Shown piece after piece: positions 1,499 to 20,232 of a stretch of DNA of 20,232 nucleotides. Within the stretch, counting starts at the first letter, position 1. The number at the start of each line of letters is the position of its first letter. Origin of the DNA: a virus; IMG/VR virus record IMGVR_UViG_3300003690_000533, positions 1 through 20,232 of that record. One strand, given 5' to 3'. The notes under the pieces are model-generated. The model was given only the letters and a program-made list of their open reading frames with translations. It was not told the DNA's origin and did not search any database. A program made the position numbers and the translations under genes.

Positions 1499-1633
1499 AT
1501 GGCCGAGATCGTCGACGGCATCTGTCAGCGGTATAGCTGCCTGCCGTCCCAGCTAATGGCCGAGGACGTGGGAATACTGCGGATGCTGGCAATCGTGAGC
1601 GAGGGCAAGGTAGAGGACAAAGCGAGTGGCTAA
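1499..1633 (+). CDS. Small chaperone second part (T-like), 44 residues
   Basis: This short ORF begins MAEIVDGICQRYSCLPSQL and ends KVEDKASG. It has high G/C at third codon positions, as real genes here do, and overlaps the tape measure start by 8 bases. The RYxxLPSQLMAEDVGILRML pattern resembles the short proteins commonly found just before tape measure genes. The ATG at 1499 has an AGGA about eight bases upstream (1487-1490), so independent initiation is possible. Upstream codons in this frame also look coding (WRSEAARIRNLE) back to the amber codon at 1451-1453, with no start codon between. It may therefore be made as an extension of the gpG-like protein by amber readthrough. That it is coding is likely; the expression route is unresolved. 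Confidence 0.6.
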   Translation: MAEIVDGICQRYSCLPSQLMAEDVGILRMLAIVSEGKVEDKASG

Positions 1634-3407
1634 TACCGTCACCATAACGGTCGACGCCGACACAAAATCGGCCGAGAAGAGCGTCAAGGGCATGGGCGGG
1701 AAGTTCAAGACCGCCATGAAGGGCGTTGCTATGGCCGCTGGTGGTTTAACGCTGGCCGCTGGCGCGGCGGCGAAACTCGGCCAGGAATATCAGGAGGCGA
1801 CGAACACAATTGCTGCTGGTACTGGCGCATCTGGGGAGCAGCTTGAAGGGCTGACCCAGAGCTTCAAAGACGTCTGGGGAACGGTTCCGCAGGACGCAGC
1901 GGCAGTATCGGCGGCAATCGCCGACATCAATACCGAGATGGGGCTGGAGGGCGCAGCCCTGGAGGATGTCACCAGGGCATTCCTCGATGTCTCGCGGGCG
2001 ATGGGCGAGGAAGCGGGGCCGATGATTAAATCGGTCGCCGACGCCATGATTGCCTTCGGCGTTCCGGCATCAGAGACCCGCGCTCAGTTGGACAAGCTGA
2101 CCACGGTTTCCCAGGCGGTGGGTGTACCGATGAGTGCCCTCGCGGCCACCGTCGTCAAATTTGGCCCGCAGTTGGCAACGATGGGTTTAAGCCTGGACGA
2201 GTCCACTGCGTTGATTGCGAACATGGAGGCGGCGGGCCTCTCTGCCTCTAAAATGATGCCGGGGCTGAACACGGCAATCGGGAAGCTGGCGAAGGAGGGT
2301 GTTACCGACATCAAGGGTGGACTGATGGAGATGATCGCCAGCATCGAGAATGCCGAGACAGAAACCGAGGCACTGGCGATTGCGACTTCTAATTTCGGTG
2401 CTGGTGCCGGTATCCGGTTTAAGGACGCCATCGATAAAGGCGTGTTCTCCCTGGAGGATATGCTGGAGGCGATGGCGAACTCCGAGGGCAAGGTCGCAGA
2501 CCTCGGAGCGGCCACTCTGACCATGTCGGACAAGATGGACATCATGAAGAACAAGGTCAAGGGCGCACTCTCGCCCATCGGGAAATTCGCCACGGCCCTC
2601 GGCCCGATGGTGATTATGGCCCCGGCGATTGCCACCGGCATCTCCGCGATGGCAGCATCCCAGACTATAGCGACGGCGGCGACCTGGCTCCAGACTACGG
2701 CGATGGCGGCGTTGAACCTCGCAATGGGCCCTGTGGGATTGATCATAATCGGAATTGTTTTGGCAATCGCTGGAATTGTCCTCGCGATTAAGAACTGGGA
2801 CAAGGTGACCGCGGCCTTCTCCAAGGTCTGGGATACGGTCTGGGGTACGATCAAGCGGGTCTTTGAGCCGGTCGTCGATTTCATCAAGGGCGTGATCGAC
2901 GGGCCGTTCGGCTGGCTCCTCCCAGGAGGCGCGCTGATTAAGGCTTTGTTCTTCCTACGCGATAACTGGGACACGATCTGGAACGGGATGAAGGAGGTCG
3001 TCAAGACGATTGCCCGCCCCATTATCAGCGTGATCAACGTGGTGATAGGTGCGATTAACGGCCTGCTCCAGGCCCTGAACGACATCAACATTGACATCCC
3101 CTCTGTGGGGATTGGCCCCTTCAAAACCCCTGCTTTCTCTTTCGACCCGTTCAATTTCCCGATGATCCCGGACATTCCCATGCTGGCCCAGGGCGGCATC
3201 GTCCGGTCGCCTACCCTCGCCATGATCGGAGAGCGGGGGCCGGAGGCGGTCGTCCCGCTGGGTCGCGCCGGAGGAATGGGCGGTGGTATCACTATTAACA
3301 TCCTAGGCCCGACGTACGGGTTCGACGATTTTGAGCGGAAGGTCTCGACAGCGATCCGCGACGGCGTCCGCCGGGGCGGGTTCTCCGGCATCCTAGCCCC
3401 AGCATAG
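1626..3407 (+). CDS. Tape measure protein
   Basis: This 593-residue protein sets tail length and is threaded through the tail tube. It starts at a GTG overlapping the previous stop by 8 bases, with an AGAGGA-type site upstream. The N-terminus (VDADTKSAEKSVKGMGGKFK followed by an alanine- and glycine-rich helix) and the EYQEATNTIAAGTGASGEQL stretch near residues 54-73 are typical of TP901-type tape measure cores. A very hydrophobic segment lies around 364-388 (MGPVGLIIIGIVLAIAGIVL). The C-terminal motif around 519-546 (LAQGGIVRSPTLAMIGERGP, then EAVVPL) is found in many phage tape measures. At roughly 0.15 nm per residue the tail would be about 90 nm, which is an inference. It is the largest gene in the window, and both flanking blocks fit siphovirus order. 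Confidence 0.93.
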   Translation: MANTVTITVDADTKSAEKSVKGMGGKFKTAMKGVAMAAGGLTLAAGAAAKLGQEYQEATNTIAAGTGASGEQLEGLTQSFKDVWGTVPQDAAAVSAAIADINTEMGLEGAALEDVTRAFLDVSRAMGEEAGPMIKSVADAMIAFGVPASETRAQLDKLTTVSQAVGVPMSALAATVVKFGPQLATMGLSLDESTALIANMEAAGLSASKMMPGLNTAIGKLAKEGVTDIKGGLMEMIASIENAETETEALAIATSNFGAGAGIRFKDAIDKGVFSLEDMLEAMANSEGKVADLGAATLTMSDKMDIMKNKVKGALSPIGKFATALGPMVIMAPAIATGISAMAASQTIATAATWLQTTAMAALNLAMGPVGLIIIGIVLAIAGIVLAIKNWDKVTAAFSKVWDTVWGTIKRVFEPVVDFIKGVIDGPFGWLLPGGALIKALFFLRDNWDTIWNGMKEVVKTIARPIISVINVVIGAINGLLQALNDINIDIPSVGIGPFKTPAFSFDPFNFPMIPDIPMLAQGGIVRSPTLAMIGERGPEAVVPLGRAGGMGGGITINILGPTYGFDDFERKVSTAIRDGVRRGGFSGILAPA

Positions 3408-10426: not shown

Positions 10427-10499
10427 CGCCGTAGACGGGCAGCAACCGCCGAATAGCCCCTATCCCCTACCTCCCCCCAGTCGGTCGCCGTCTATGGCG
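10427..10499. repeat. 12-bp inverted repeat enclosing a C-rich tract
   Basis: CGCCGTAGACGG (10427-10438) and CCGTCTATGGCG (10488-10499) are inverted copies with one mismatch, which is a wobble as RNA. The 49 bases between include a run of C blocks (10457-10478: CCCC, CCCC, CC, CCCCCC), so the minus strand is G-rich. It lies between the late terminator and the early promoter. It could be a protein-binding or origin element; no function is shown. Confidence 0.5.
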
Positions 10500-10555
10500 T
10501 TTCCGCCCGTTTTCGGATTTCACTAAAATGACCCAAGATTGCCACCTATAGGGTA

Positions 10556-10584
10556 TTGACATGGGTATAGCACCTATATATAAT
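10556..10584 (+). promoter_or_regulatory. Consensus sigma-70-type early promoter
   Basis: TTGACA (10556-10561) and TATAAT (10579-10584) are both perfect and are separated by 17 bases, the optimum. Transcription would start near 10591 and read into the gene at 10784, leaving a leader of about 190 bases. CACCTATA occurs twice, just upstream of the -35 box (10543-10550) and abutting the -10 box (10571-10578), 28 bases apart. Such placement suits a repressor or activator site. Confidence 0.85.
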
Positions 10585-10713
10585 AAGGGTAGATCAGGCG
10601 GGGTGCAGGCCACCAACAAGCACCACAAACACCCAAACGGCAAGATGGCGGGCGAAGCGAGAGCAGGAGTAGCCCGGATGCGCCGAGACCAGAGAGGGGA
10701 ACTGGTCAAGGTC

Positions 10714-10759
10714 ACCGGACAACTTATCCGGTCTGAACGAGAGCCAGTCAGTAACTGGC
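10714..10759 (+). promoter_or_regulatory. Two hairpins in the early leader
   Basis: ACCGGA (10714-10719) pairs with TCCGGT (10727-10732) around a seven-base loop. GCCAGT (10743-10748) pairs with ACTGGC (10754-10759) around a five-base loop. The second ends about 12 bases before the AGGAG ribosome site of the gene at 10784. They could affect translation or mRNA stability; the stems are short, so chance is possible. Confidence 0.4.
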
Positions 10760-10783
10760 CGAAACCTACACAAGGAGAACGAC

Positions 10784-11393: not shown

Positions 11394-11405
11394 ACGGCTG
11401 AGAGG

Positions 11406-11425
11406 CCGGGGCCGCGTGGCCCCGG
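11406..11425 (+). terminator. Perfect 8-bp GC hairpin, possible terminator or mRNA end
   Basis: CCGGGGCC (11406-11413) pairs exactly with GGCCCCGG (11418-11425) around a GCGT loop, twelve bases after the preceding stop. ATTAAAG follows, so no U-tract is present. It may terminate weakly or protect the 3' end of the upstream message. A smaller GACCCG/CGGGTC stem follows at 11438-11458. Confidence 0.5.
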
Positions 11426-11481
11426 ATTAAAGCCCCAGACCCGGTCTCAAGGCGGGTCAAAATCAGGGCTGAGAGGGAGAC

Positions 11482-11583
11482 ATGGTAGAGGCTATGGCAG
11501 AGATTCGGGCGTTGATGGACGCCGGGCTGATCAGTCGGCGGGATGCCGAGCGGATTATCGCGAGACTGGAGGAGACACGATGA
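11482..11583 (+). CDS. 33-residue coupled small protein
   Basis: This tiny ORF begins MVEAMAEIRALMDAGLISRR and ends RIIARLEETR. It has a GGGAG ribosome site six bases upstream and overlaps the next gene by four bases (ATGA). The sequence is one or two amphipathic helices, and its codons have the G/C third-position bias of real genes here. Function is unknown; the pattern LMDAGLISRRDAERI is like a short helical hairpin. Coupling suggests it works with, or leads translation into, the following protein. Confidence 0.55.
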   Translation: MVEAMAEIRALMDAGLISRRDAERIIARLEETR

Positions 11584-11870: not shown

Positions 11871-12184
11871 CCGTCGTCAGATGCCCGGTCGAAGACACCT
11901 ATCTCGTACGGGACGACTCCGAGCCGCTCCCGGTCGGCCAAACCGAATCGAGCTTCTCGGTAGTTGTCCACCGCTACCGGTTCGGGTGGGTCTGCGAGCG
12001 GTGCGGATTCCGGGAAGGAACGACATTGCAGGATTGCGCCGGGCCGTGCTATTGCTGCGACCCAAAAAACTGCCACCATAATCCCTGTATAGTGCAGGCG
12101 GTATTTCCCGATGGCGGAGTCTGGGTCGCTAACCGCTACGGGTTCGCCCGCCGCATTGCACCGGATCAAATCAGGTCTGCTTAG
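11867..12184 (+). CDS. Cysteine-rich, probable zinc-binding small protein
   Basis: This 105-residue protein is coupled to the previous gene by an ATGA overlap. Its centre (about residues 43-70) has VCERCGFREG, then CAGPCYCCDPKNCHHNPC, with many cysteines and two histidines. It is likely a zinc-stabilised fold of one or two ribbons. Flanking strands (SSFSVVVHRYRFGW and GGVWVANRYGFARR) give a compact beta protein. Such small phage proteins often act on host transcription or DNA, but nothing here shows the target. The gene is well supported; the function is unknown. Confidence 0.65.
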   Translation: MTVVRCPVEDTYLVRDDSEPLPVGQTESSFSVVVHRYRFGWVCERCGFREGTTLQDCAGPCYCCDPKNCHHNPCIVQAVFPDGGVWVANRYGFARRIAPDQIRSA

Positions 12185-12202
12185 GAGTTAAGCCCGAAGC
12201 GT

Positions 12203-12225
12203 CGCCCCGGCATCCAGTCGGGGCG
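12203..12225 (+). repeat. 7-bp GC hairpin after the coupled small genes
   Basis: CGCCCCG (12203-12209) pairs with CGGGGCG (12219-12225) around nine bases, about 20 bases after the preceding stop. No U-run follows. It may be an mRNA 3' structure or weak terminator. Confidence 0.4.
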
Positions 12226-12325
12226 GGTCTCATAACGGGCCGGTGGTTCGGGCCATCGGCATCGAATCGAGTTGGAAGGAGTGAGACGAATCGGCCCGCC
12301 GGACAATTAGCAGATGGGAGACATT

Positions 12326-13348
12326 ATGCCAGCAGGAATTACAGAGACGGACGGAATGGCCTACGTGGGACGTAGGCCCTGGCACGGCCTGGGAACTTTC
12401 GTCGAGGGGAAGGCCATGAATTCGGCCCAGGCCATCGAGGCCGCGGGGCTGGACTGGGAGGTCGTGACCGAGCCGGTATTCCGGCATATCCCAGCCGACG
12501 ATTGGAGGCCGTACCACTTCAAGGAGGTCGAGGGCAAGCGGGCGGTCGTCCGCAGGGACACCGACGAGGTCTTCGGCGTCATGTCCGACGGGTACACGCC
12601 GATTCAAAACCTGGCGTCCTTCGACCTGATGGACGCGGTGGTCGGCTCCGGCGATGCGACGTTCCACACGGTCGGATCGTTGTTCGGCGGTCGGCGGGTC
12701 TGGATGCTTTGCAAGCTTCCCGGCGACTACCGGCTGGACAACGGGGAGAAGCTGGAGTCCTTCATCCTCCTCGACAACTCCCACGACGGGACGGCTGCGC
12801 TACGGATGCGCCTGACGTCGGTTCGGGTGGTTTGCAGCAATACGCTCGGATCGGCGACGAGTAGTCGGGCGGCATTCGCGGCACGGCATACGTCGGGGAT
12901 CATGGGCAGGGTCAACGAGGCCCGCGACCTCCTCGGCCTGAACGGCGTATACATGGCGCGTCTGATCGAGGACGCGAATCGGATCGCGGAACAGGCGTGG
13001 AGTCACGACGAGATGAAGAGCATGACCTACAAGCTCCTCGACCTGGACGACGACCGGTCGATGGATAAGCAGCGCGGGATCAAGGCCCCGGCGGCGTCGA
13101 AAATGCTAGACCTGTTTTATCTGGGCCAGGGCAACCGGGGCGAGACGAAATGGGACGCCCTCAACGCGGTGACCGAGTACCTCGATTACAGCCAGGGCTC
13201 GCGCTCAATGGACAGCCTGGACTCGACCGAAGACGCGGTAGTCTCCCGGCGGTTGCAAAATTCCTGGCTCGGCTCTGGCGGCGAGGCGATGCGGACGCAG
13301 GCGTGGTCGATCCTGAACGCTCCGAGTCCGGAGCTGGCCGGGGTCTAG
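12326..13348 (+). CDS. DUF932 / phage-plasmid-like TIGR03299 family protein
   Basis: This 340-residue protein begins MPAGITETDGMAYVGRRPWH. The ATG at 12326 is chosen over the one at 12314 because GGGAG lies six bases before it. The family signature is clear: WHGLGTFVEGKAMNSAQAIE, DRxTDEVFGVMSDGYTPIQN-like sequence near 80-95, FHTVGSLFGGRRVWMLCKLP, then LLDNSHDGTAALRMRLTSVR and VCSNTLG. DUF932 proteins are common in phages and plasmids. Their biochemical role is not established, though some are linked to DNA metabolism or recombination. The gene stands alone between two hairpins, not in an overlap chain. The family call is secure; the function is not known. Confidence 0.88.
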   Translation: MPAGITETDGMAYVGRRPWHGLGTFVEGKAMNSAQAIEAAGLDWEVVTEPVFRHIPADDWRPYHFKEVEGKRAVVRRDTDEVFGVMSDGYTPIQNLASFDLMDAVVGSGDATFHTVGSLFGGRRVWMLCKLPGDYRLDNGEKLESFILLDNSHDGTAALRMRLTSVRVVCSNTLGSATSSRAAFAARHTSGIMGRVNEARDLLGLNGVYMARLIEDANRIAEQAWSHDEMKSMTYKLLDLDDDRSMDKQRGIKAPAASKMLDLFYLGQGNRGETKWDALNAVTEYLDYSQGSRSMDSLDSTEDAVVSRRLQNSWLGSGGEAMRTQAWSILNAPSPELAGV

Positions 13349-13362
13349 GATAAGGCACGAAG

Positions 13363-13398
13363 GGCTTGGCGGTGATATACTACCCATACCGCCAAGCC
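13363..13398. promoter_or_regulatory. Perfect 11-bp inverted repeat before the helix-turn-helix gene
   Basis: GGCTTGGCGGT (13363-13373) and ACCGCCAAGCC (13388-13398) are exact inverted copies around 14 bases (GATATACTACCCAT). The right arm ends just before the GGAGGGAGGA ribosome site of the gene at 13414. It could be a terminator without U-tract, an mRNA hairpin, or an operator for the adjacent DNA-binding protein. TATACT inside the loop could act as a -10 box, but no good -35 is visible. Confidence 0.6.
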
Positions 13399-13413
13399 AG
13401 GGAGGGAGGACCA

Positions 13414-13653
13414 ATGCCAGTCGGGAAATGGTCGACGGTGCGCGAGTGCGCGCAGGAAATCGGGGTCACGCGGGCACGTGTCCATCAGCTAATCGGGAAG
13501 GGGTTGCTGGGCGAAACGCGACGGTGGAATACGCCGCGTGGCGTGGTCTGGATGATCCGGCGGCCGATACAACGTACGCCCAGTCGGTCGGGGTATCACA
13601 AGGCGGAGTGTACATGCGGGAAGCATCCGGGAGACAGGAGGTCGAAAGGATGA
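13414..13653 (+). CDS. Small helix-turn-helix DNA-binding protein
   Basis: This 79-residue protein begins MPVGKWSTVRECAQEIGVTR. The ATG at 13414 is preceded by a very strong GGAGGGAGGA, which rules out the longer ORF from 13366. Residues 7-45 (TVRECAQEIGVTRARVHQLI, then GKGLLGETRRW) are a MerR- or excisionase-like helix-turn-helix plus wing, ending VVWMIRR. A basic tail with CTCGKHPGDRR follows and may hold a metal or be disordered. The stop overlaps the next start (ATGA). A perfect inverted repeat lies just upstream, making autoregulation plausible. It may be a transcription regulator or replication accessory protein. Confidence 0.72.
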   Translation: MPVGKWSTVRECAQEIGVTRARVHQLIGKGLLGETRRWNTPRGVVWMIRRPIQRTPSRSGYHKAECTCGKHPGDRRSKG

Positions 13654-14069
13654 GGCTAGCACATGCGGTACAGAACGCGACGCTCGACGAGGTCGTTGTC
13701 GAACTGGTCGACGTTCGGAAGCGGATCAAGGCGATGGAGGAGGCCGAATACCTCCTGAGCCGTCAGGTAATCGAGGCGATGGAGGCTGACCAATCGGAGC
13801 GCATGAGGACGCCGGAGGGGGTGGTCACGATCACTCGGTCGGTAAGCTACGATGCCGCAATCCTCGCGGCTCTCCGCGAGATCACCGACCCGGCAGACCT
13901 GGACGGGATTTACTCGCCGGAGCGGGACGAGGTGCGGCGGGTGCCGGAGAAATGGAACATGGCGAGGGGGCGAAAGCTGCTCAAGCATAGTGGAGACCAT
14001 GCGGCGATTATAGAGGACGCGAAAATCTACGGACCGGCGAAGGTACAAATCGAGAAGGAGGGACGCTGA
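13650..14069 (+). CDS. Coiled-coil early protein, unknown function
   Basis: This 139-residue protein begins MRLAHAVQNATLDEVVVELV. The ATG at 13650 overlaps the previous stop and follows a CAGGAGG site, so the longer ORF from 13428 is not used. Residues about 12-45 (VVELVDVRKRIKAMEEAEYL, then LSRQVIEAMEA) form a probable coiled coil. The second half has strand-like EGVVTITRSVSYD and an ordered helical end (WNMARGRKLLKHSGDHAAII). The layout recalls small phage recombination-associated helpers, but I cannot place it in a named family. It is coupled by TGATG to an OB-fold-like protein, so involvement with DNA is plausible. Confidence 0.65.
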   Translation: MRLAHAVQNATLDEVVVELVDVRKRIKAMEEAEYLLSRQVIEAMEADQSERMRTPEGVVTITRSVSYDAAILAALREITDPADLDGIYSPERDEVRRVPEKWNMARGRKLLKHSGDHAAIIEDAKIYGPAKVQIEKEGR

Positions 14070-14878
14070 TGACTGTCAGCATTGTGGAGACAGAGGCGAC
14101 GATTCTTAGGGTGGAGAATGCCCGAGGCCGGGTCACTATTGAGGCCAACATCCCTGAGCTAGGGCAGTACCCGACTCGGTTCATCCGCTGGGCCGGGACG
14201 GGCAATGCCCCGGCAATTGGAAGCGAGGTTTGGGCGACGATGGAGCCGACTGTCCGACAGATGAGGTTCGTTAAGGATGGAACTTTTACGGGCGAGGCCA
14301 TCGACGGGGAGGAGAAACCGTGGCAGGTCAATTGGCAGATGACGGGCTCGCGGCCATTAGAGGGCGGGAACGGGACCGAGTCGGGCAATGCCACCGAAGC
14401 GGCCCAAAGGTCTCGCTCTGGGGCTGCAAGGGCCTCTGGTGGGGCCGCATGGATGGACCCAGCCCTCCGGTATCGCGTCGATACCATGACCATCAACGAC
14501 CGCGAGGCCGTCCGACAGGCTGTGGCGTTCGGAGCGGCAGAGGGTGGGAATATCATCGCGGACATCTCGACTCTGCTGGCGATGGCCGGGGAGCTTGCGG
14601 AGTGGTGGAACGCTCGGTTCCTGTCGCGCATCGGCGGGGACTCGCCTCTTGTCGCCCATGCCGAGAGTCTGGGCGCGGTGGTTGCGGAGGCACCGGAGCC
14701 GCCGTCTATCAAAAACGAGGCCGAGTTGAGGGAGTGGGTAGAGGGTCGCGAGTGGAGCCGGGAGGACGTGATCGGAGTGATCCGGTCGGCCGGGTACGAA
14801 TCGGCCAGTGAGTATCTGGCGGTGCCAGGGAATACGGCGTCGGGGCTGGCGTCTGTCCTCGGGGAGCACCTAGGATGA
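14069..14878 (+). CDS. Possible OB-fold DNA-binding protein
   Basis: This 269-residue protein starts at an ATG overlapping the previous stop. The first ~80 residues alternate as beta strands (ATILRVENARGRVTIEANIP, YPTRFIRWAGTG, GSEVWATMEPTVRQM), compatible with an OB fold as in single-strand-binding proteins. A glycine- and serine-rich linker (about 95-125) leads to a helical region (MDPALRYRVDTMTINDREAV and ISTLLAMAGELAEWWNARFL). A C-terminal helical part contains WSREDVIGVIRSAGYESASE. It sits just before the ATPase in the replication run. A single-strand-binding or replication accessory role is inferred from fold impression and context only. The C-terminus is not the acidic tail of classical SSB. 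Confidence 0.55.
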   Translation: MTVSIVETEATILRVENARGRVTIEANIPELGQYPTRFIRWAGTGNAPAIGSEVWATMEPTVRQMRFVKDGTFTGEAIDGEEKPWQVNWQMTGSRPLEGGNGTESGNATEAAQRSRSGAARASGGAAWMDPALRYRVDTMTINDREAVRQAVAFGAAEGGNIIADISTLLAMAGELAEWWNARFLSRIGGDSPLVAHAESLGAVVAEAPEPPSIKNEAELREWVEGREWSREDVIGVIRSAGYESASEYLAVPGNTASGLASVLGEHLG

Positions 14879-15156
14879 CGACGGCCCCGCTCCATTGTTC
14901 GGATGCGTACTGCGACCTGCACGACTACCGGATTAACACGCCGGGCATTTGTCTGCGGCAGGACGCGCTTCGGCGTTCGGTGGAGCTATCAACGCCTCGG
15001 TCGGCCTCTCATAACGAGGGGCTGGCCGGGGCGATCCTACGCCTGACGGAGATGCTGGAGGGGTGGCCGGAGCGACAGCCCCGTCCTAAGGCCACGCCCA
15101 GGGAGCCGGACAGACCGGCACGACGCGAGAGGCGTCAGGGAGGGACGCCGCTATGA
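14875..15156 (+). CDS. Small arginine-rich protein of unknown function
   Basis: This 93-residue protein is locked between two genes by four-base overlaps at each end. The N-terminus has cysteine-histidine content (LHCSDAYCDLHDYRINTPGI, then CLRQD) that could hold a metal. The middle is a short helix (GLAGAILRLTEMLEGW) and the end is a basic, proline-rich tail (RPKATPREPDRPARRERRQG). The tail could bind nucleic acid or the ATPase encoded next. No family recognised. Confidence 0.6.
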   Translation: MTTAPLHCSDAYCDLHDYRINTPGICLRQDALRRSVELSTPRSASHNEGLAGAILRLTEMLEGWPERQPRPKATPREPDRPARRERRQGGTPL

Positions 15157-16436
15157 TGGCACAGAGCCTTTCAACGCCGACGCTAGAGCGGCAGGGCACC
15201 GCTTACATGGTGACCTGGGCCGAGGGCGTGGTCGTCGAATGTCGACGCCTATACGAACACAGAGACCGCCACATTGAGGCCGTCGTCACAGTACGGGATA
15301 CGGCGGAGCTTAACGGCCCGCATCTCCTTGGGCCGATCCGGACCCACATCACCAAAACGTGGCGCGGGATCATCTCCGAGCTGGAGGCGATTTCGTCAAG
15401 GGACGACTGGCGGCAGCGGATGACCCAGGTGTCGTCCATGGTCACCGAGGCGTACCTGGCCGGGTCTCCGGCCATCGCGTTGGACGACGCTGAACCACCG
15501 GAGCCGAGTCGGGAGGTAATCTCCCGGATACTCTGGGAGGGGACGCCGTGCATCATTTACGGTGCGGGTGGAATAGGGAAATCCCTTGTCGGGCTAAACC
15601 TCATCCAGGGGTTACATTCCGGCTTCGCCGTGGCCGGTCTGGGGACGGTGCAACAGAACGCGCTCTGGCTAGATTGGGAGACTACCCGAAACCTGGCCTA
15701 CTGGCGGAACTCGGAGATACTCCGAGGCCGCGGGATCGAACCGGGGCGATGGCCTGATCCCGAGAGACCGGAAAGCCCACGGGGGCGGATGGTTTTCTAC
15801 CGGGAGATGGTCGGGAGCTTGAGCGACAACGTCGAGACGGTAGCCGACGAGATCGAGGCGTATAACATCGGGACCATCCTGGTGGACAGCGCGATTCCGG
15901 CGTGCGGAGGGGAGGCCGAGGCGACCAAGCCGACCCAGGACTTCTTCACGGCTCTAAGGGCGATCAAGCCGGCCGACCGCGACCTGTCGACGCTGATCAT
16001 CGCGCACGTGACGAAGGAGGCGACAGGTAGCAAGGCCAACGCCACGCCCTTCGGATCAACGGTATGGAAGGACCGGGCGAGAGACACTTTTGAACTGAAG
16101 GCGTCCCAACTGAGGAACGCCGCCTATAGCGACTTCGCCCTCCATCACAGGAAGTCCAATATGGGGCCGCTGCACGACCCGTTGGGCTTCCGTCTGACCT
16201 GGGCTGACGGCTGCACCATCGAGGCCTTGGACATCAAAGAAAATGCGGAGTTGGTGGCGGGTCTGCCCATCGCCGAGAGGGCGAGGATCGCTATCGGCGA
16301 GAACGGTGCGATGACAACGGAGGAGCTGGCCGAACTTCTGGACTCGCCACGGTCAACGGTCGCGTCGGCCCTGTCGCGAGATCATCGATTGGCTCCTCAG
16401 AACGGCCGCTGGGAGCCGTCGGGCACAGACTGGTGA
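15153..16436 (+). CDS. RecA/RepA-like P-loop ATPase (AAA_25 type)
   Basis: This 427-residue protein carries a Walker A motif GAGGIGKS at residues 137-144, preceded by WEGTPCIIY. A Walker B-like strand TILVDS ends at about residue 246, and an LIIAHVTKEA motif lies near 281-290. That order is typical of RepA/RecA-superfamily hexameric helicases and ATPases (AAA_25) in phages. The first ~110 residues form a separate domain. The last ~60 (AMTTEELAELLDSPRSTVAS and onward) form a winged-helix-like DNA-binding domain. It starts at an ATG overlapping the previous stop and ends overlapping the next gene. It is likely the replicative helicase or a recombination ATPase of the phage; the ATPase fold is secure and the precise job is inferred. 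Confidence 0.85.
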   Translation: MMAQSLSTPTLERQGTAYMVTWAEGVVVECRRLYEHRDRHIEAVVTVRDTAELNGPHLLGPIRTHITKTWRGIISELEAISSRDDWRQRMTQVSSMVTEAYLAGSPAIALDDAEPPEPSREVISRILWEGTPCIIYGAGGIGKSLVGLNLIQGLHSGFAVAGLGTVQQNALWLDWETTRNLAYWRNSEILRGRGIEPGRWPDPERPESPRGRMVFYREMVGSLSDNVETVADEIEAYNIGTILVDSAIPACGGEAEATKPTQDFFTALRAIKPADRDLSTLIIAHVTKEATGSKANATPFGSTVWKDRARDTFELKASQLRNAAYSDFALHHRKSNMGPLHDPLGFRLTWADGCTIEALDIKENAELVAGLPIAERARIAIGENGAMTTEELAELLDSPRSTVASALSRDHRLAPQNGRWEPSGTDW

Positions 16437-17461
16437 GGGAGCTATACAGGCGGGCACTACAGGCGTTCGGAGCGCGGATAATCTCAGAGAGGAGCGAGAC
16501 ATTGGCTACAAAAACGGACACGACCACAGGCACGGAGTGGGAAGATCAGGGACGATGCCGGGAGACGTTACCGTTTCCGAGGCGCATACACATGTGCGGG
16601 GCGGGGTGTTATTGGATCGCGGCCCCGATCAATAAACAGATGACGTCGAGGACTGTCCGGATCACGCCGGAGATTGCGGTGCAATGGCTGAAACGCAACG
16701 AAGCCAACCGGCCTTTCACGCGAGGAAATGCCCGTGCGCTCGCGGCTGAGATGGAACGGGGCTATTGGCAGGAAAACGGGGAATCAATCGTATTCGACAC
16801 GAACGGCATATTGATTGACGGCCAGCACCGCCTCCAAGCCGTCCTCAACTCCGGCTACGAGTACCTCGTCCCGGTGATCACGGGCGTTCAAGCAGCGGCG
16901 AGGCCGACGGTAGATACCGGCGTGAAACGCAGCGCGGCGAATAACCTTCAGATGGCGGATGAGCAGAACGCCTCCCTCCTGGCGGCAACGCTGCTGCTGT
17001 GGCGTGGGTATGAGGCCCGTAACGCTAGGATGATGACCCACCCGGCCTCGGTCGCGCCGGAGGATCGTGTCAGCATCCCTCGGATTCTTGAACACCTTAA
17101 AGAGTGGCCGGGGCTGCGGGAGGCGGCGCGGGAATCTCTCGCCCTCCGCCCGCCAGGCCGGGGCCGGTCGCTCGTCCCTTCGTCCGAGGCCGCCATGATC
17201 TGGTTCGCCATCGTTCAATCCGGGGCCAGTAAAGAACGGGCGAATCAGTTCCTGGGCTCCGTCCTAACGGGCTATAACCTGCCAGAGGACAGCCCCATTA
17301 TCGGGCTCCGGCGTCGGCTGATCGACATCATGGGGATAGGGTATCGGATGGATAAAAGAGAGCGGATCGCCCTCGTCCTGAAAACCTGGCAACTATGGTC
17401 AACCGGCAAATCCCGGAAGGTCATCAGGTGGGAGCCGACCGAGCCTTTCCCGTTCCTATGA
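16433..17461 (+). CDS. ParB-like phage protein
   Basis: This is a 342-residue protein if it starts at GTG 16433, which overlaps the previous stop by four bases. A TTG at 16502 is an alternative, with a better AGAGGAG site seven bases upstream, and would remove 23 residues. The central motif FDTNGILIDGQHRLQAVLNS (DGQHRL at 129-134) is the ParB/sulfiredoxin-like core. It is preceded by NRPFTRGNARALAAEMERGY and followed by TVDTGVKRSAANNL, an arrangement frequent in phage proteins of this superfamily. An N-terminal segment has three cysteines (RCRETLPFPRRIHMCGAGCY). The C-terminal 160 residues are helical. ParB-like folds in phages can bind or cut DNA or use CTP; which applies here is unknown. 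Confidence 0.8.
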   Translation: MRELYRRALQAFGARIISERSETLATKTDTTTGTEWEDQGRCRETLPFPRRIHMCGAGCYWIAAPINKQMTSRTVRITPEIAVQWLKRNEANRPFTRGNARALAAEMERGYWQENGESIVFDTNGILIDGQHRLQAVLNSGYEYLVPVITGVQAAARPTVDTGVKRSAANNLQMADEQNASLLAATLLLWRGYEARNARMMTHPASVAPEDRVSIPRILEHLKEWPGLREAARESLALRPPGRGRSLVPSSEAAMIWFAIVQSGASKERANQFLGSVLTGYNLPEDSPIIGLRRRLIDIMGIGYRMDKRERIALVLKTWQLWSTGKSRKVIRWEPTEPFPFL

Positions 17462-17570
17462 TAGCGGGGCGCATTACCGGCATGTAGGGGTTAGGGGCCG
17501 GGGCGGTCTTAACACGCCGCTCCGGCGATCCTCGCACGGTCTATAGGTATTTATGGGAGGCGGTAACATT

Positions 17571-17945
17571 ATGCACCAGCAGGCCAGTTTCGACTGGGTG
17601 GCAGAGGGTAGGCTGGAGACAAAGTTCTGGGAGTTCCATGTGCAGCATCCGAAGGTATACCGGACGCTTCTATACTTCGCCCGGCAATGGCGGAAAAAGC
17701 GCGGGCCGGACGCCGTCTGCGGGATCGGTGCCTTGTACGAGCGGGCGCGGTGGGAGATGTGGTTCCAGAGTCTAGACGATAATCCGCCGCCGAAGCTGTC
17801 CAATAATCACCGGGCATTCTACGCGAGGCTGATTATGGAACGGAACCCGGACCTCGCCGGAATCTTCCGGCTGAAGCGGCAGAGAGTACAGGCCACGTTC
17901 GGCCCAGATAATCAGACTCTCGATCCTAACGAACACCTGGAATGA
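17571..17945 (+). CDS. Small phage protein with HP-VY / NNN-YARLIM pattern
   Basis: This 124-residue protein begins MHQQASFDWVAEGRLETKFW. The ATG at 17571 is favoured over 17553 because GGGAGG lies between them at a usable distance. The core reads EFHVQHPKVYRTLLYFARQW, IGALYERARWEMWF and KLSNNHRAFYARLIMERNPD, ending IFRLKRQR. I recognise this combination from small phage proteins often encoded near resolvase or replication genes. No activity is established to my knowledge. It stands apart from the coupled run, with its own ribosome site, and is followed at once by a strong terminator, so it is the last gene of this transcript. Confidence 0.72.
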   Translation: MHQQASFDWVAEGRLETKFWEFHVQHPKVYRTLLYFARQWRKKRGPDAVCGIGALYERARWEMWFQSLDDNPPPKLSNNHRAFYARLIMERNPDLAGIFRLKRQRVQATFGPDNQTLDPNEHLE

Positions 17946-17966
17946 ATGCGATATCTACGGCAAATC

Positions 17967-18014
17967 AAGCCCCGTCTGGACTCTCAAGCCGAGGGTCTGG
18001 GCGGGGCTTTTTTT
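17967..18014 (+). terminator. Strong two-part intrinsic terminator
   Basis: AAGCCCCG (17967-17974) pairs with CGGGGCTT (18002-18009). Inside, GACTCTC pairs with GAGGGTC, including one wobble, around AAGCC. The T run covers 18008-18014. It ends the early transcript 20-odd bases after the gene at 17571 and is the most convincing terminator in the window. Confidence 0.92.
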
Positions 18015-18031
18015 GTGGTTACGGGGCAGGA

Positions 18032-18058
18032 GGTTTTGAGGGTTTTGATGGTTTTGAT
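18032..18058. repeat. Three tandem 9-bp repeats
   Basis: GGTTTTGAG (18032-18040), GGTTTTGAT (18041-18049) and GGTTTTGAT (18050-18058) follow one another with no gap, and a partial AGGTTTT follows at 18062. They lie between a terminator and an operator-like region, like short iterons or regulator sites. They contain TTGATT-type boxes that could serve as a weak -35, with CATAAT (18075-18080) at short 15-bp spacing. Confidence 0.6.
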
Positions 18059-18089
18059 TCTAGGTTTTCCGATACATAATCGCCCTGAT

Positions 18090-18124
18090 CCGTTGCGCCG
18101 CAATTGCGGGCCGTTGCGCCGCAA
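18090..18124. promoter_or_regulatory. Twin palindromes, operator-like
   Basis: CCGTTGCGCCGCAA occurs twice (18090-18103 and 18111-18124), and each copy contains the palindrome TTGCG-C-CGCAA. The copies are 21 bp apart, two helical turns. A further perfect palindrome, CGCAATTGCG (18099-18108), overlaps the first copy, giving five half-sites. This is the expected shape of a cooperative repressor operator upstream of the RusA-like gene. Confidence 0.65.
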
Positions 18125-18165
18125 CAGCTACGATCCCCCTCGCGCGCGGGGAGTCTAGTACTGAC

Positions 18166-18303
18166 TATATAAGACTGAGACTTAGCCCTGAGTCACGTAA
18201 GAGACGAAGGGCTAAGAGACTAAGACTGAGAGACTAGACTAGACTGACGCCCACTCGCCCTAATGGGCTCACTGGCGTCAAGCTCAAAACAGAGAAGGAG
18301 ATT
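18166..18303 (+). promoter_or_regulatory. AGACT-repeat leader with two strong hairpins
   Basis: After an AT-rich TATATAAG (18166-18173; possible -10, no good -35), the sequence is rich in AGACT and AGACTNAG repeats up to 18245. CTTAGCCCT (18181-18189) pairs exactly with AGGGCTAAG (18208-18216). TGACGCC (18245-18251) pairs with GGCGTCA (18274-18280), with an inner GCCC/GGGC stem. The ribosome site AGAAGGAG follows. It looks like a structured 5' leader for the gene at 18304. Confidence 0.55.
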
Positions 18304-18684
18304 ATGGACTCACTGACAATCGAGATTGTCCCGGACTCTAGACTGTCCAAGAATGGCCTGCGGAAATCGAATTGGCGGACGTCCCAGGCCCTTATGAAAC
18401 AGGCCCGAGAAGACGCCTACATGCTCGGCCTGGCTGAGATGGAGGATGACTGGCAGACGCCCGAGAAGGCCACCGTCCAGATCACACAATACTTTGCGCG
18501 TCGCCCCCTGGATTTTGACGGTTTGGCGTGTATCGTCGCACCGACGCTGGATGGACTTGTGGATGCAGGCGTTCTTGAAGACGATGACCCAGGTCATATC
18601 GTCGGGTATACTCTGGGCCATGTGAAGGTGGCGACGATGCCCGAGAACCGCGTGACGATCACCGTGACGCCTGTCAGCGAATAG
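18304..18684 (+). CDS. rusA: RusA-like Holliday junction resolvase
   Basis: This 126-residue protein starts at an ATG with AGAAGGAG upstream. RusA dimers cut four-way DNA junctions made in recombination or before packaging. The usual motif is D-x-D-N followed by a conserved lysine and a second acidic patch. Here D70-F-D72-G leads into VAPTLDGLVDAGVLEDDDPG, with acidic residues at 83 and 93-95. The N-terminal strand (LTIEIVPDSRLSKNGLRKSN) also fits, and the length is close to the family norm of about 120. Oddly, the Asn of DxDN is Gly and the expected Lys is not seen. It is probably active or recently diverged. The fold assignment is strong; catalysis should be treated with some caution. Confidence 0.82.
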   Translation: MDSLTIEIVPDSRLSKNGLRKSNWRTSQALMKQAREDAYMLGLAEMEDDWQTPEKATVQITQYFARRPLDFDGLACIVAPTLDGLVDAGVLEDDDPGHIVGYTLGHVKVATMPENRVTITVTPVSE

Positions 18685-18695
18685 GAGGAGCAGTC

Positions 18696-18884
18696 ATGGA
18701 AACCGTTCGACATTCTGGGGCTGGATACCCGATCCCTAGATTCGGCACCGCCCCCCCATTGATGACCAAGGAGGAGTATGCGAACCGCCGCCCGCTAAAC
18801 CTGGGGCATAACAGGCCAGCGAGTGAGGCAGATTATCATCCAAGAACTGAGGAGTCGAAAGTCGAAGGCGTTCCGGTGCGTTAG
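18696..18884 (+). CDS. 62-residue small protein
   Basis: This begins METVRHSGAGYPIPRFGTAP and has a very good AGGAGGAG site before its ATG, eleven bases after the RusA-like stop. The composition is proline- and charge-rich, probably with little stable structure (LMTKEEYANRRPLNLGHNRP). Its last 62 bases overlap the next ORF in another frame, which is longer than typical here. One of the two ends or starts may therefore be wrong. Function unknown. Confidence 0.5.
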   Translation: METVRHSGAGYPIPRFGTAPPLMTKEEYANRRPLNLGHNRPASEADYHPRTEESKVEGVPVR

Positions 18885-19101
18885 GTGCGGGGCCTCGGAG
18901 GAGGCACTGCCCACGGGTACCACCGACGTTATGGGCGGCACTCATTTTGTCTACACTACGCCGCCGGGGTGGTGGAGCATTACCACCGAGACCGGGATGG
19001 TAACGTTCTGCGCTGGCGAGGACGTGGGCATAGTGACCGCCGAGATCATAGACGGCCTGAACAATATGGAGGTGCAGCCGTGCAGATCAGAGACCGGATA
19101 A
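18823..19101 (+). CDS. Zinc-ribbon-like small protein
   Basis: This 92-residue protein from GTG 18823 has FRCVRCGASEEALPTG near its N-terminus, a CxxC pair, and a later cysteine in GWWSITTETGMVTFCAGED. CxxC...LP.GW....C is a common layout of small phage zinc-ribbon proteins. No start codon lies closer to the FRCVRC motif, so the overlap with the previous gene seems real. The ribosome site is weak. It overlaps the next gene by 22 bases. The role is unknown, perhaps protein or nucleic-acid binding. Confidence 0.6.
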   Translation: MRQIIIQELRSRKSKAFRCVRCGASEEALPTGTTDVMGGTHFVYTTPPGWWSITTETGMVTFCAGEDVGIVTAEIIDGLNNMEVQPCRSETG

Positions 19102-19355
19102 CGGCCCAGTGCGATGAGTGCGCGGGCAGCATAGATATTAGCAAGGGATACAATCCGATATGCGGGAAGCTCTTGGGTGGCGAGCCTCCCGCATCGCGGG
19201 TATGGGTGGGCAATAAATTCCATTCGATGGGGGCCACCTTCGCCTGCGCTGATTTGATCTGCCCTGATTGCAGACGGGACGACACCGTGCGGCGATATTC
19301 GCGGGAGACTGGGCAGCCTCTGGGCTTTGGTAAGTGGCGACGGATGCACGAATAA
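19080..19355 (+). CDS. Cysteine-rich small protein (zinc-binding)
   Basis: This 91-residue protein starts at GTG 19080 with GGAGGT seven bases upstream, which excludes the longer ORF from 18885. Cysteines occur as AQCDECAGSIDISKGYNPIC and later FACADLICPDC, so a two-part zinc-binding fold is likely. The first seven codons (MQIRDRI) are identical to those of the next gene, on a 19-base exact repeat. The C-terminus is basic (GQPLGFGKWRRMHE). Function unknown. Its neighbours are a second zinc-ribbon-like gene and the ParB-methyltransferase, which suggests a DNA-related task. Confidence 0.7.
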   Translation: MQIRDRITAQCDECAGSIDISKGYNPICGKLLGGEPPASRVWVGNKFHSMGATFACADLICPDCRRDDTVRRYSRETGQPLGFGKWRRMHE

Positions 19356-19392
19356 TCCATAGGAGCCAGACGATGCAGATCAGAGACCGGAT
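19081..19392 (+). repeat. 19-bp direct repeat at two gene starts
   Basis: TGCAGATCAGAGACCGGAT occurs at 19081-19099 and 19374-19392. Both copies begin at the second base of a start codon (GTG and ATG), so both proteins begin MQIRDRI. The spacing is 293 bases. It probably marks a local duplication or recombination that reused a start region. Confidence 0.8.
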
Positions 19393-20232
19393 CAAGGAGC
19401 TGAGGCGCGTCCCGGCGTCGGAGCTTCTACCGAACCCCAAGAACTGGAGAACGCACCCTGTCGCGCAGCAGGACGCCCTTAGAGGCGTGTTAGCCGAGGT
19501 CGGGTATGCCGACGCCCTGATTGCCAGGGAAACGCCCGAGGGGCTGATGTTGGTCGATGGGCACCTGCGGGCTGAGACCACGCCGGACTCCGACGTCCCG
19601 GTGCTGGTGCTGGACATCAACGAGGCCGAGGCCGACCTGATGCTGGCGACGCTCGACCCGCTGGCAGCGATGGCGGGGCGGGACGAGGAGCGGTTGACGG
19701 AGTTGCTATCGACGGTGTCATCCGATAACGCCACGGTGAACGCCCTCCTCCAGACCCTGGCGAACGGGTACGAACCGCTGACGTTGTTGGAGCCGGAGCC
19801 GCCGGACGAGGGCTTCGACGTAGACGACGCGCTGGACGATGTCGAGGAAGACGATTACGAGCCGACGGTTCAGCGGGGCGAGGTCTGGAGTCTGGGGCGG
19901 CACCGCCTCATGTGCGGGGATTCTACTGACGGCGAGGCTGTTGGATTGTTGATGGCGGGAGAGAATTTTCAATGCCTGCTTACTTCTCCGCCTTACAACG
20001 TGGATGTGGTTTACGGTGTTCACGACGACAAGCGTACATCTTGGGATGAATATGGAGGGTGGCTTAGAAATGTGATTGCTGCGTGGGTGCAGCAGATGGA
20101 TATTGGAGGGGCTTGGGTATGGAATATTGGGGTGTCGCCGTCTACGTTCCCATTTCAACAGGGAGTGCTGTTGGCTGAGTTTCTTGAATTTGAACGGCAG
20201 CTAATTTGGAGGAAAGTGGGCGTCCCAGTACC
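19373..20232 (+). CDS. ParB-DNA methyltransferase fusion, 3'-truncated
   Basis: The ORF starts at ATG 19373 with TAGGAG upstream and is open to the window end (286 codons seen). Residues 1-90 are a ParB-like domain (ASELLPNPKNWRTHPVAQQD, LMLVDGHLRAET, DVPVLVLDINEAEADLMLAT). An acidic linker (DVDDALDDVEEDDYE) leads to the methyltransferase opening RGEVWSLGRHRLMCGDST and motif IV LLTSPPYNV. ParB-methylase fusions are common in phages, and S-P-P-Y fits N4-cytosine or N6-adenine enzymes of the beta-type motif order. It likely methylates phage DNA to evade restriction or regulate replication. From about 19918 codon use becomes much more AT-rich than in the first 180 codons. The SAM-binding motif would lie beyond the end. 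Confidence 0.85.
   Translation, partial: MQIRDRIKELRRVPASELLPNPKNWRTHPVAQQDALRGVLAEVGYADALIARETPEGLMLVDGHLRAETTPDSDVPVLVLDINEAEADLMLATLDPLAAMAGRDEERLTELLSTVSSDNATVNALLQTLANGYEPLTLLEPEPPDEGFDVDDALDDVEEDDYEPTVQRGEVWSLGRHRLMCGDSTDGEAVGLLMAGENFQCLLTSPPYNVDVVYGVHDDKRTSWDEYGGWLRNVIAAWVQQMDIGGAWVWNIGVSPSTFPFQQGVLLAEFLEFERQLIWRKVGVPV

Follow-up and report, generated by a model that had tools for sequence, protein, structure and literature searches.

A conserved pair of dyads before rusA as a candidate control site of a late operon in uncultured phages

What is the pair of palindromes that lies in the gap before a rusA-like gene of an uncultured phage, and does the tandem repeat beside it belong to the same element? 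We analyzed a window of 20,232 bases, which is a whole IMG/VR record (linear, complete, ~60% G+C) with its main open reading frames (ORFs) on one strand. An earlier note on this DNA had described tandem 9-mers, twin palindromes 21 bp apart and an overlapping CGCAATTGCG, with no repressor gene adjoining on either side. All of these elements are present in the sequence, and the neighbors are an ORF of unassigned function and a resolvase gene:

18032-18058, + strand: three tandem 9-mers, GGTTTTGA(G/T), starting at 18032, 18041 and 18050
18093-18103, no strand assigned: dyad 1, TTGCGCCGCAA
18114-18124, no strand assigned: dyad 2, TTGCGCCGCAA, 21 bp from dyad 1
18099-18108, no strand assigned: CGCAATTGCG, overlapping half-sites between the dyads, found in some relatives only
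17553-17945: function-unassigned ORF (phrog_13625), upstream neighbor of the site
18304-18684, + strand: RusA-like Holliday junction resolvase (PHROGs phrog_34, E 6.4e-8), first gene of the downstream unit

The dyads are 21 bp apart from center to center, or two helical turns, and the exact dyad occurs in the record only as these two copies, with a single further dyad-like copy (one mismatch, at 16674) inside a coding region. Dinucleotide shuffling of the window gave two dyads with the same 5-nt arms, spaced 12–30 bp apart, in 1 of 200 trials, and shuffling the 260 bp upstream of rusA gave no pair as good in 300 trials.

The left part of the window holds tail genes (tape measure, 1626-3407), and an early block, delimited by ORF reading and family matches, begins at about 10.5 kb; a gene for a ParB-domain methyltransferase follows rusA and runs off the window end. 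Besides a small HTH gene described further on and, after the ATPase gene, more ORFs of unassigned function, the early block has two genes that serve as landmarks below:

12314-13348: DUF932 gene, early block
15153-16436: AAA_25 ATPase gene, early block

No tRNA genes were found in the window, megablast of positions 12000-20232 against a phage collection gave no near match, and the RusA alignment, scanned against genome contigs with the host in question, gave no relative there. Ribozyme candidates were seen in the early block, namely a Twister-P5 match at 11396-11455 (+ strand, before the ORF at 11580; 33.4 bits, gathering threshold 37.6, E 1.1e-4), with a similar match in L041 (11400-11457, 34.2 bits), and a Pistol match at 12182-12232 (+ strand, before the DUF932 gene; 32.7 bits, gathering threshold 34.5, E 1.4e-4). 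Pistol matches recur in relatives L040 (35.7 bits), L087 (42.2), L042 (34.3) and L043 (32.6), with L040 and L087 above the curated threshold, and L041 carries a type III hammerhead candidate near its early leader (10481-10537, + strand; 47.5 bits, gathering threshold 48.5, E 2.1e-7). Self-cleaving ribozymes seem to lie between early genes of this phage group.

Viral contigs searched with the RusA-like protein yielded 10 loci, and a search with an alignment of nine yielded 28, of which 26 could be read upstream (L070 and L071 start inside rusA). With L045 and L066 left out, as they start after the dyad position, 24 relatives and the window make up the 25 records compared. All nine clade A records (the window, L046–L051, L011 and L064) carry a TTGC(G/A)-N-(C/T)GCAA pair at exactly 21 bp, and all 13 clade B records (L052–L057, L059–L063, L067 and L068) carry a GGWTAAC-N-GTTAWCC-like pair in the same place at exactly 22 bp; the latter amount to 7 distinct sequences, since L053–L055, L057/L062/L063 and L059–L061 are identical or nearly so. 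Three further relatives (L058, L065 and L069) have rusA and its leader hairpin and no dyad pair. The earlier note had held that related phages lacking the symmetry or spacing, with normal expression of the downstream gene, would speak against it; the part of this comparison that concerns symmetry and spacing found both kept in 22 of the 25 records. At the center of the clade A dyads the window has C where the other records mostly have G, with symmetry kept, and more generally each unit remains self-palindromic while its center bases vary (C/C, G/G, T/T, A/T), which argues for a dimer site rather than a hairpin between units 1 and 2. A dyad 1–dyad 2 hairpin was rejected as the main constraint, the center bases being mostly non-complementary. 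On these comparisons, the pair is real and conserved, and probably a protein-binding site.

The 9-mers do not share this history. Three copies occur in the window and none in nine other clade A records, of which seven extend across this place and two (L011 and L045) begin beyond it. With 0 of 7 informative close relatives carrying the repeat, the proposal that 9-mers and palindromes form one functional unit falls, and the 9-mers were rejected as iterons because they are private to the window record. The true additional repeats in relatives are CGCAAC half-sites, found upstream of the pair in close relatives at roughly one-turn and two-turn steps, and in one relative (L064) two more full dyads, making four dyads spaced 21, 24 and 21 bp. 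The two roles first suggested for the palindromes, a cooperative regulator or an iteron origin, both survive once the 9-mers are removed from the element.

The clade A dyad, allowing at most one mismatch, was found at the locus in 9 of 13 records searched, the other matches being only single ones with one mismatch. A scan of the whole collection for paired TTGCG dyads returned 16 stretches: 8 belong to the rusA-site family of the window, one (L018), in unrelated DNA that looks coding, is spaced at 21 bp, and 7 are spaced otherwise. A scan for pairs of TAACNGTTA gave 49 stretches: 13 are clade B records, and the other 36 show no rusA. A phage group unrelated to this one carries TAACNGTTA repeats, in 11-bp steps, within a gene starting MARIRYLKPDFFKDEDIKEL (L117, L118, L120, L121, L130, L134, L138 and L140), or, in L100, within a gene with a different but similar-looking start; this gene is possibly a replisome organizer with an origin inside. 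DnaA boxes were rejected as an account of the clade B dyads, where, by eye, TTATCC lacks a conserved ACA after it. Relatives of the upstream gene at 17553 (L034–L038) showed, by eye, no rusA directly downstream. A literature search with the dyad strings and with phage late promoters and origins associated with RusA found no account of the element among the papers listed; the kind of region, a phage operator or iteron region, is already known, and this member of it is new.

The surroundings of the site bear on its function. Just before it stands a terminator:

17967-18009, + strand: intrinsic terminator closing the upstream transcription unit, 19-pair stem and T tract

The terminator is near-identical in the close relatives of clade A that cover it. 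It is shared by L017 although the gene before it there is unrelated, which places an exchange boundary near the terminator, with the site traveling on the rusA side. In clade B no terminator was seen ahead of the pair, and rusA might be fed by read-through in that lineage. Downstream, the relative L039 reveals the unit after the site as rusA, a methylase, a TerS-like helix–turn–helix (HTH) protein, terL, a second methylase, portal, head and tail genes, with rusA, methylase, the TerS-like gene, terL and portal all on one strand (the window stops within the methylase gene). In L039, the site therefore lies directly before a packaging and structural operon, as expected of a late promoter.

Sigma-70 promoters were sought with a crude consensus, which may not be the host's. 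The window contains a single perfect match:

10556-10584, + strand: sigma-70 promoter match (12/12), heading the early operon

The best matches in L041 (11/12), L040 (10/12) and L082 (10/12) are syntenic with it and lie next to conserved leader DNA; in the window, this conserved early leader follows the perfect promoter (10556-10778). Between the terminator and rusA, the scan found no match in the window or in L039, and at the site none in L040 and none on the rusA strand of L082, where one 9/12 match lies on the opposite strand. Judged by this consensus, the site is poor where the early promoter is good. No conserved −10 element was found among relatives between the dyads and rusA.

The leader of rusA is predicted to fold into two hairpins:

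18181-18216, + strand: hairpin a of the leader, whose internal loop is GA/GA
18246-18279, + strand: hairpin b of the leader, immediately ahead of the ribosome-binding site

When 21 leaders were folded, each but that of L066, which starts inside the folded stretch, gave a strong hairpin immediately upstream of the rusA ribosome-binding site. Among nine clade A leaders, 6 of 22 hairpin pairs were changed on both sides, as were 9 of 19 among eight clade B leaders, and the covariation score in both clades exceeded that of every one of 500 shuffles and of every slid control; the figure for cells paired leans towards the structures, since these were derived from the same alignments. In hairpin a, the GA/GA internal loop is kept in all nine aligned clade A sequences and its flanking stems change. 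Rfam gave no family match for 17940-18320 (best E 3.9) and none at E ≤ 0.5 for the loci of 11 relatives, and a known leader or ribozyme at the site was rejected, as no curated family matched.

Our preferred reading, a tentative one at slightly less than an even chance, is that the site controls transcription of the operon running from rusA into the late genes, its dyads being bound cooperatively by a phage-encoded dimer that is probably an activator. Early, upstream transcription would end at the terminator; the dyads at 18093 and 18114 would be two homodimer sites on one helix face, filled cooperatively; and the bound early phage protein would recruit or activate host polymerase, switching on the late operon, whose transcript would have, ahead of the ribosome-binding site of rusA, one or two stable hairpins that may serve in processing or stability. 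A cooperative, phage-encoded dimer is suggested by the two-turn spacing, the self-symmetry with a free center, the single site per record and the lineage-wise change of sequence, and it is the wholesale change of the dyads between lineages that points to a phage-encoded binder. Activation of the late unit is favored by the position, the terminator, the missing sigma-70 match and the leader hairpins, and an activator is the most likely kind of bound protein given that no recognizable sigma-70 promoter lies at the site and a perfect one at the early operon. We also counted in its favor that terL and portal lie downstream and that early transcripts carry RNA elements (the ribozyme candidates), and against it that no −10 is conserved, that clade B lacks the terminator and that three relatives lack the pair.

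Which protein might bind? One candidate is encoded in the early operon:

13411-13653, + strand: small winged-HTH protein, candidate dyad binder

This protein (67–85 residues, starting MP(V/F/I/Y)) comes after DUF932 in the early block and was found in 10 of the 28 records, those long enough to reach it by our reading of record lengths. Its predicted structure is a winged HTH (mean pLDDT 73) resembling the small winged-HTH proteins P2 Cox, mycobacteriophage Xis and BldC; the listed Foldseek neighbors included a P2 phage protein (4lhf, TM-score 0.51; we take it to be Cox), Pukovnik Xis (4j2n) and BldC (6ama), but none matched at E ≤ 0.001, and the Pfam matches, such as HTH_17 in the clade B proteins, fell below curated cut-offs. 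The recognition helix is nearly identical in clades A and B although the dyads differ, which speaks against this protein as the sole specificity factor and leaves its role as a lead only. What the comparison shows is the conservation, spacing and position of the pair, the gene order, the covariation of the hairpins and the lack of a sigma-70 match; protein binding at the dyads, a phage origin of that protein, activation rather than repression and the winged-HTH protein as the factor are things that we infer. The C-terminal sequence of the early-block ATPase also looks, by eye, like a winged helix. The gene at 17553 was weakened as a candidate binder, as L017 keeps the dyads but has an unrelated ORF in that place; on reading its translation, this replacement ORF has a winged-helix look. 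As a separate observation, the clade A winged-HTH proteins carry a C-terminal ECTCGKH motif, a possible metal site, that is absent from the clade B versions.

Two characterized activator systems offer partial parallels. In the excerpted account of phi29 (PMC3100819), the single late promoter A3 has low homology to the host consensus, carries paired inverted-repeat sites and needs the early protein p4, and early genes use host-type promoters. The rusA site is similar in its poor consensus match, paired inverted repeats and host-type early promoter, but the p4 sites given there (CTTTTT-15 bp-AAAATG) are unlike the present dyads, and activation here is a proposal. At the Mu middle promoter Pm, as excerpted from PMC4390567, Mor binds a dimer site with 5-bp inverted repeats in place of a missing −35; that is one 16-bp site with a 6-bp spacer, compared with two dyads with a 1-bp center here, and the −10 hexamer of Pm has no conserved counterpart at the rusA site.

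The main rival is a lambda-type replication origin, in which the dyads would be iterons for an initiator that opens an adjoining weak stretch for helicase loading. Such a stretch was found:

18148-18247, + strand: the 100 bp of the window that melt most easily, a candidate stretch for unwinding or promoter melting

Among all 100-bp stretches of a contig, the one between the dyad position and rusA ranked as the weakest in 6 of 10 contigs that have the region upstream of rusA (the window, L040, L042, L043, L083 and L086), second in L082 and L087, fifth in L020 and sixth in L039. Excerpts of two accounts (PMC3349717, PMC7466680) describe ori-lambda as four iterons of 18–19 bp, each an imperfect inverted repeat, separated by short spacers and beside a 38-bp AT-rich stretch, two iterons and the AT stretch being enough for unwinding. 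The present locus may be analogous, with two to four clustered inverted-repeat iterons at regular spacing (two dyads in most records, four in L064, and in other close relatives two dyads plus CGCAAC half-sites that continue the spacing), an easily melted stretch just after them and a single site in each record; the TAACNGTTA repeats inside the replisome-organizer-like gene of the unrelated phage group, on reading only, point the same way. However, easy melting is common to promoters and hence weak evidence: the window's other weakest stretch is the early promoter. L083, at rank 1, is one of the relatives without a dyad pair. A TATAAG within the weak stretch (18168-18173) is present in the window only and absent from relatives. 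The lambda origin also lies inside gene O, whereas the site here is outside any initiator gene and intergenic in the records read, its dyads are 11–15 bp with a 1-bp center, and no initiator, including any relative of lambda O or P, was recognized. GC skew does not turn at the site, and although the covarying hairpins might instead form in the single-stranded DNA of an origin, they and the upstream terminator are more directly explained by transcription. We consider an origin possible and the serious rival, less likely than transcription control. It is a good deal less probable that both functions coincide, with one dimer at the dyads melting the weak stretch and firing both replication and the late operon.

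Clustered dyads are common among operators of temperate phages. The same conservation and shuffle results would suit an operator at which a phage repressor or autoregulator silences or damps the rusA operon, but no repressor or integrase was noticed by eye in the ORF translations of the window or L039, and the consensus scan found no promoter at the site for a repressor to block, so that we find this reading improbable. More doubtful still is a role in packaging, as a cos or pac site recognized by the small terminase subunit, for which one could cite the TerS-like and terL genes about 2.2 kb downstream in L039 and the five records (L045, L011, L051, L063 and L066) that start within 310 bp before rusA (at distances, in order of size, of 39, 143, 152, 236 and 306 bp). 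No two of these five starts coincide, several fall in hairpins or repeats that may interrupt assembly, and they are probably assembly breaks; among 13 loci found with the upstream ATPase, L015 is the one record to end short of the site, and rusA and a methylase gene stand between the site and terS. Chance palindromes in an intergenic gap, conceivable for such short elements in DNA that drifts, can be set aside given a fixed-spacing pair in 22 of 25 records and in 0 of 300 shuffles.

Returning to the control-region reading, the site provides, from comparison alone, a precise candidate for an early-to-late (or replication) switch in uncultured phages. Should the same dimer serve both functions, the site would be a dual-use switch coupling late transcription to replication, in which the dyad specificity is swapped whole between lineages and the spacing, hairpin and rusA stay. 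The locus also illustrates that a conspicuous tandem repeat may have no bearing on the genuine site next to it. With differing dyads in the same slot of sister clades at a fixed two-turn spacing, these phages form a natural series for studying how a regulator and its site change specificity together.
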